Shown one piece after another: positions 31,514-40,832 of a DNA stretch of 64,000 nt. The stretch's first letter is position 1. The number at the start of each line of letters is the position of its first letter. A program made the position numbers and the translations under genes. The DNA comes from Actinomycetota bacterium (GTDB taxonomy: Bacteria; Actinomycetota; Nitriliruptoria; Nitriliruptorales; Nitriliruptoraceae), in contig JAHWKY010000002.1 in the NCBI GenBank assembly GCA_019347575.1, positions 1-64,000 on the forward strand, in the 5' to 3' direction. The notes under the pieces are model-generated. The model did no database searches. It worked only from the letters and a program-made list of their open reading frames with translations, and was not told the DNA's origin.

Positions 31514-31592
31514 GCACGCCTCCTCGTCGTTGGCGGGCGAGGGTAGAGGTGCGGAGGTCGGCGGTGTCGCAGCGGCGGGGTACGGTCGGGGC

Positions 31593-36059
<4,467 letters not shown>

Positions 36060-36243
36060 CCGGCCGCGTTGCGCGAGCAGACGCGACGGCACGGGCGCTG
36101 CCGCGAGCGCGCGCCCGCCCGCCGGTGGAGCACCGGAACCGCCCCCAACCCCCGCAGAACGTGCAGCAGATGCGCCGAACGGCGCCGGACGTGGCGTAGG
36201 CTCGAACCGCGATCCACCTCCGATACGAAGGAGAGCACCGACC

Positions 36244-36420
36244 ATGGCGGAATCCGTCATCGTGACGAGCAAGGTCAAGGCAGCCATCAAGGAGCAGGGC
36301 ATGCGCACGGACGGCAGCCTGCCCGATGCCTTGAACGACAAGATCCACTCGATGCTGAAGGAAGCGGCCAGCCGCGCCAAGGAGAACGGGCGCAGCACGG
36401 TCCGTCCGCACGACCTGTAG
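36244..36420 (+). CDS. single histone-fold DNA-binding protein (bacterial histone, HBb-like)
   Basis: This 58-residue basic protein fits one histone fold. A short helix (TSKVKAAIKEQG), loop, long central helix (ALNDKIHSMLKEAASRAKEN) and the hallmark GR-S-TV-RP-H-DL end (Gly-Arg-x-Thr, then Asp-Leu) match the L2 loop RT-D pair of archaeal histones and of the bacterial HBb proteins. It should dimerise and bind DNA. GAAGGAG lies nine bases before ATG 36244, and a very strong terminator follows. It stands 184 bases downstream of lhr. The protein is too short for HU or DUF1931 doublets. A function in chromosome packing or gene control is inferred. Confidence 0.8.
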   Translation: MAESVIVTSKVKAAIKEQGMRTDGSLPDALNDKIHSMLKEAASRAKENGRSTVRPHDL

Positions 36421-36444: not shown

Positions 36445-36472
36445 CCAGCCCCCGGTTCACGCCGGGGGCTGG
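36445..36472 (+). terminator. strong hairpin terminator of the histone-fold gene
   Basis: CCAGCCCCCGG-TTCACG-CCGGGGGCTGG is a perfect 11-bp stem with a 6-base loop, 24 bases after the stop, followed by CGCGTTGTTCC. It is one of the strongest terminator candidates in the window and suggests a highly expressed short transcript. Confidence 0.8.
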
Positions 36473-36599
36473 CGCGTTGTTCCGCGATGGTGGCCATCCG
36501 TACACACGGTCGCTAACACCCCCGACAGCGCTGTAGTTCCAGGGAGCGGCGTGACCGTCCACGGTACTGGTGCCCCGCCTGCCAACCCGCCCCGACCTG

Positions 36600-36768
36600 A
36601 GCGTGTGCATCCAGGCCCGCCCCGCGGGTCAATCTGCACACGCTCGTCCCGGCAACCTCCAGCGTGTGCATCCAGGCCCGCCCCGCGGGTCCATCTGCAC
36701 ACGCTCGTCCCCGCAACCTCCAGCGTGTGCATCCAGGCCCGCCTCGCGGGTCCATCTGCACACGCTCG
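36600..36768. repeat. tandem array of three 61-bp hairpin units
   Basis: Units begin at 36600, 36661 and 36722; the third is cut short near 36768. Each holds the inverted pair AGCGTGTGCA and TGCACACGCT around about 25 bases of GC-rich loop (GGCCCGCCCCGCGGGTC-like). Units differ by only a few bases, mostly in the loop. The stretch lies between the histone terminator and the next genes, and no supported reading frame covers it. Likely roles are multiple transcription stops or a protein-binding array. Confidence 0.8.
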
Positions 36769-36795
36769 GGTGGGCGCCCCGTACCCTCCGTCCCC

Positions 36796-39539: not shown

Positions 39540-40832
<1,293 letters not shown>

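Follow-up and report, generated by a model that had tools for sequence, protein, structure and literature searches.

Most reports of bacterial face-to-face (FtF) histones concern Spirochaetota, Planctomycetota, Bdellovibrionota and Myxococcota. The class is defined by its predicted or solved tetramer and is marked by an arginine and an asparagine that end helix α2, together with the motif RxTxxxxD (PMC11390915). The FtF bacterial histone characterised in detail, in structure and in function, is the one from Leptospira. HLp (Leptospira perolatii) forms tetramers and has been shown experimentally to wrap about 60 bp of DNA; its residues R49, N53 and R55 help to join two dimers, and R55 and D62 make up the RD clamp (PMC12701072). 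In Leptospira interrogans, which lacks HU, the HLp-type histone is abundant in the nucleoid and probably essential. Dimers of the HBb type, from Bdellovibrio, lack the tetramer residues (R48 and N52 in FtF profile positions). Regarding histones of Nitriliruptor, Nitriliruptorales or Actinobacteria in general, we found nothing relevant in the open literature; the main texts of two surveys of bacterial histones do not name Actinobacteria, and their supplementary tables may list sequences of the order.

Here we analyse a gene of this kind in a stretch of 64,000 nucleotides, hereafter the window, from a member of the Nitriliruptorales (Actinomycetota). The reading frame 36244-36420, on the forward strand, starts with ATG and encodes a protein of 58 amino acids, MAESVIVTSKVKAAIKEQGMRTDGSLPDALNDKIHSMLKEAASRAKENGRSTVRPHDL, whose C-terminus, GRSTVRPHDL, has the GR-x-T and D-L ending described in the earlier note. 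The ribosome site that the same note had called strong is a Shine-Dalgarno motif, AAGGAG (36228-36233, forward strand), located 10 nt upstream of the start codon, and intact orthologs carry this motif or a similar one ahead of theirs. The histone's own promoter presumably lies in the 184-bp intergenic region that separates the gene from lhr (36060-36243). From these sequence signals, the strong Shine-Dalgarno motif and the gene's own intergenic region, strong expression is plausible. Beyond the stop codon, at a distance of 24 bp, a 12-bp G+C hairpin (36445-36472, forward strand) is a probable terminator; the 80-nt region that holds it folds with -47.9 kcal/mol and, as a whole, reaches z = -4.7. 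The terminator claimed before thus stands as far as the strong hairpin is concerned, but it lacks a run of T. Further downstream, positions 36599-36782 contain three tandem 61-bp units; each includes an imperfect palindrome with AGCGTGTGCA...TGCACACGCT as its outer arms. The first copy of the palindrome spans 47 bp (36599-36645), and the arms recur elsewhere in the genome, at C1:239898 and C41:4238, so that the repeat looks like a dispersed REP-like element.

A short reading frame in a GC-rich genome, where spurious frames abound, could in principle arise by chance, and the G+C content of this gene (64%, against 70% for the window) might also raise the suspicion of a contaminant in the assembly. 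Against both stand orthologs in some 30 genomes from within the family; they are 53-72% identical and preserve frame, Shine-Dalgarno motif and synteny. The gene lies on a 216-kb contig between genes that neighbour it throughout the family, and its GC3 of 91% is the value awaited of a real gene, since the genome has 70% GC. The median pairwise dN/dS among orthologs is 0.29, which indicates purifying selection on the histone. A chance frame is ruled out by orthologs, synteny, GC3 and dN/dS, and we give practically no weight to an artefact of either sort.

The protein is a single histone fold, as had been proposed for this actinobacterium from the sequence, and phmmer, the predicted structure and the conserved family all back it. 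In a phmmer search of all PDB sequences, the only convincing matches were histones: HLp was the best (3.7e-11), followed by HBb from Bdellovibrio (2.8e-6 and 3.1e-6) and HTkC from Thermococcus (0.0084). The search of histone families that the earlier note had suggested gave only sub-threshold matches when run with curated models. The protein scored 16.5 bits against Pfam CBFD_NFYB_HMF (cut-off 21.4) and 14 bits against NCBIfam archaea_histone (NF043032; cut-off 50), and thus does not fall among the archaeal nucleosomal histones as recognised by a curated model above its cut-off. Annotation by these models alone would therefore miss the gene. The score against the DUF1931 pseudodimer (PF09123) was 17.4 bits, with a cut-off of 21.8, and the protein contains one fold and not two fused ones. 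Pfam matches to a LonB AAA lid and to an RHH antitoxin were rejected, because they lay below their cut-offs with partial alignments and the top matches in both sequence and fold are histones.

The AlphaFold model of the single chain, built on 49 aligned sequences, has a pLDDT of 93 and displays the three-helix histone fold, with α1 at residues 8-17, α2 at 26-47 and a short α3 turn at the C-terminus. A short α2 and a one-turn C-terminal α3 are the features of α3 histones. Foldseek placed HLp at the top (E 6.3e-5, TM 0.90-0.93), then HBb and HTkC. Structural alignment with VIA-align agreed with this order of the first match: DNA-bound HLp gave Z 9.0 at 0.8 Å (range over HLp structures, Z 8.9-9.0 and 0.8-0.9 Å rmsd) and HTkC gave Z 8.2 at 0.9 Å, while archaeal and eukaryotic nucleosomal histones were clearly lower (Z 5.5-6.2). 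The monomer model matches, in both programs, chains taken from the tetramers of HLp and HTkC.

Assignment to a narrower class than a plain histone dimer depends on a few residues at the end of the protein. The codons from R44 to L58 (36373-36417, forward strand) hold the tetramer and L2-loop signature R44, N48, R50, T52 and D57, which is invariant across the 49 aligned relatives and whose roles are taken from HLp and other FtF histones. R44 and N48 close α2 at positions 48 and 52 of the FtF HMM, and the motif RxTxxxxD of loop L2 and the RD clamp reads R50-S-T52-V-R-P-H-D57. HLp R49, N53, R55 and D62 align with R44, N48, R50 and D57. The lysines of α1 that serve DNA binding in FtF histones are also present (K10, K12 and K16), K10 being conserved in at least 90% of the 49 sequences. 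The DNA-contact residues of HLp, A13, S14, K15, K17, K21, T27, G29, T56 and T57, correspond to T8, S9, K10, K12, K16, T22, G24, S51 and T52; seven of the nine are identical, the exceptions being T8, where HLp has A, and S51, where it has T. On the other hand, HLp S52, T61 and F63 are replaced by E47, H56 and L58, and judging from these substitutions part of the tetramer interface differs from that of HLp. By analogy with HLp, from which the tetramer is carried over, we classify the protein as a putative tetramer-forming FtF α3 histone.

It could be argued that the protein is instead a dimer that bends DNA in the manner of HBb. HBb also fits the model well (Z 8.1-8.3) and shares with the window protein an N-terminus resembling MAE..VVTSKVK. 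However, the tetramer residues R and N, which HBb-type dimers lack, are both present here and invariant in the relatives, and they rule out membership in the bacterial-dimer class; moreover, the phmmer score to HLp exceeds that to HBb by 15 bits. Hence, we think that a dimeric bender is an unlikely alternative to a wrapping tetramer.

According to these data, we propose with good confidence that the gene encodes an FtF architectural histone, a homotetramer that would wrap about 60 bp of DNA and act as a bulk nucleoid protein. From the present analysis come the predicted fold, the residues and their conservation; tetramer and wrapping are taken over from HLp, and abundance and a main role in the nucleoid are what we infer. 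Two chains would pair into a handshake dimer, and two dimers would close into a ring-like tetramer through three residues from the last part of α2 and from loop L2 (R44, N48 and R50). About 60 bp of DNA would then wrap the positive rim of this tetramer with no sequence preference, with S9 and K10 at the start of α1, K12 and K16 within it, T22 and G24 in L1, and S51 and T52 in L2 as the presumed contacts. As a general architectural protein of the nucleoid, the histone would probably take on a large share of the tasks that fall to HU in sister families.

The genomic neighbourhood was the basis for a different idea, namely a link with Lhr. The upstream neighbour was named Lhr helicase in the first reading of the sequence (31550-36059, forward strand, start approximate), and its frame ends 184 bp before the histone. 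A match to Lhr adjoins the short histone in 17 of 19 regions, so the adjacency remarked on in the earlier note is conserved. The adjacency does not by itself demonstrate a functional link with Lhr, as the two genes are 184 bp apart and the citrate synthase gene downstream (39540-40832, forward strand) is just as conserved, in 18 of the 19 regions. In the sister families, a search for Lhr near citrate synthase, as an empty-site comparison, found no match. A local role, either as a regulator or as a partner of Lhr or of another DNA repair protein, would be in line with the neighbouring Lhr and with the presence of a recognised nucleoid protein, actinobacterial IHF, in the same genome. Nevertheless, the DNA-contact residues are kept along the entire rim, citrate synthase is as syntenic as Lhr, and the two regions with no Lhr nearby (L057 and L064) belong to one genus, with genomes of 1.7 Mb, that retains the histone. 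Abundance of the HLp-type protein in the L. interrogans nucleoid argues in the same direction. We regard a local role as improbable, and favour bulk DNA packaging by the FtF tetramer.

Distribution of the gene was examined in 66 genomes of the class, 36 from the Nitriliruptorales and 30 from three other families. The histone family occurs in 32 of the 36 genomes of the order and in none of the 30 others; when only genomes with completeness of at least 90% and contamination of at most 5% were considered, the figures were 15 of 15 and 0 of 18. Among 396 genomes sampled across the phylum, 19 were positive, all from this order, with a single-sequence query as well as with the family profile. HU (PF00216) shows the opposite distribution: of the 30 genomes from other families, 27 carry it, whereas in the order it was detected in G061 only; in the filtered subset it was present in 17 of 18 genomes outside and 0 of 15 inside. 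These counts are not independent observations, because one historical change could explain all of them, and probably the distributions of histone and HU do reflect a single change; Fisher tests on them accordingly exaggerate the independence of the genomes. The HU gene of G061 (L085, G061:C218) is found on a contig of 3.6 kb at 45% GC; since genomes of the same genus have 71-73%, the contig appears to be a contaminant and was rejected as a counter-example.

It is plausible, and suggested by this pattern, that the histone replaced HU in the order. The pattern falls short of proving a substitution, because HU is often missing where there is no histone and IHF is kept. Across the phylum, HU was found in 253 of the 396 sampled genomes, and the third or so of sampled Actinomycetota that lack it mostly lack such a histone too; actinobacterial IHF is retained in 57 of the 66 class members, the window's genome included. 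Lsr2 is uninformative, as it was absent from all 66 genomes of the class.

Some genomes of the order contain a second type of histone. We found 16 tailed paralogues in 14 of them (loci L044-L050, L052, L053 and L087-L093), in which the same fold follows an N-terminal region of 47-93 residues; the start of L044 may be placed too far upstream. Most tails are made up of K/A/T repeats, in which 18-32 residues are basic and acidic ones are scarce or absent; the exception is L053, with 12 basic and 8 acidic residues. They show a weak, sub-threshold likeness to the H1-like HC2 family of Pfam. In a tree of 59 columns, 14 of the 16 form one clade apart from the short histones. The window's genome has the short gene only, and a search for a second histone, family profile included, found none. 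It is tempting to speculate that HU lost its place as the main general DNA packer to the FtF histone, and that some members of the order gained a further histone bearing a long, lysine-rich H1-like tail; their chromatin would then have two tiers, in which tailed histones could clamp or condense the wrapping cores; we advance this scenario only tentatively and do not consider it the likelier course of events. Another variant was observed in G031, the only sampled genome of a sister family, which carries a 125-aa fusion of two FtF-type folds (L073:7465-7824, reverse strand, also present as L041). R, N, R, T and D are kept in both of its folds, it matches DUF1931 above the cut-off (37.7 bits), and its predicted structure is of low confidence (pLDDT 75, pTM 0.40).

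A fixed, syntenic histone in the order and HU in its sister families offer a natural comparison for the replacement of HU by a histone and for its effects on chromosome structure. Cultured members of the Nitriliruptorales exist, and the question is thus directly testable. The tailed paralogues, in turn, could serve as a test of the independent origin of histone tails in bacteria.

Positively charged tails are already known in general among bacterial FtF histones (PMC11390915), and the presence of an FtF histone together with the absence of HU recalls the situation in Leptospira. HLp (PDB 9QT0, 9QT1 and 9QT2; PMC12701072) resembles the window protein in its single fold, truncated α3, R/N/R residues and RD clamp, with 45% identity across the fold. 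It differs in phylum and in length (63 aa against 58 aa, the window protein having the shorter N-terminus), and it is flanked by SMC/MAP instead of Lhr and citrate synthase. A tree that paired the two proteins was distrusted, given its very long branch and 59 columns. HTkC, an FtF histone from Thermococcus kodakarensis (PDB 9F2C; PMC11390915), is similar in fold and length, but it is archaeal and just 30% identical. HBb, or Bd0055, from Bdellovibrio bacteriovorus (PDB 8FVX, 8CMP and 9EZZ) shares the fold, the RD clamp and a serine-lysine motif opening α1, but it is a DNA-bending dimer in which the tetramer-interface residues R and N are missing. Singlet histones from Melainabacteria, Caenarcanales and Myxococcales (L003-L011 and L013) are 55-63% identical, have 59-64 aa and end in KENGRSTVRPxDL; they belong to other phyla, that of Myxococcales being represented by one bin, and a transfer across phyla is possible. 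In summary, the gene of the window is a further FtF-type histone, of a kind already described.
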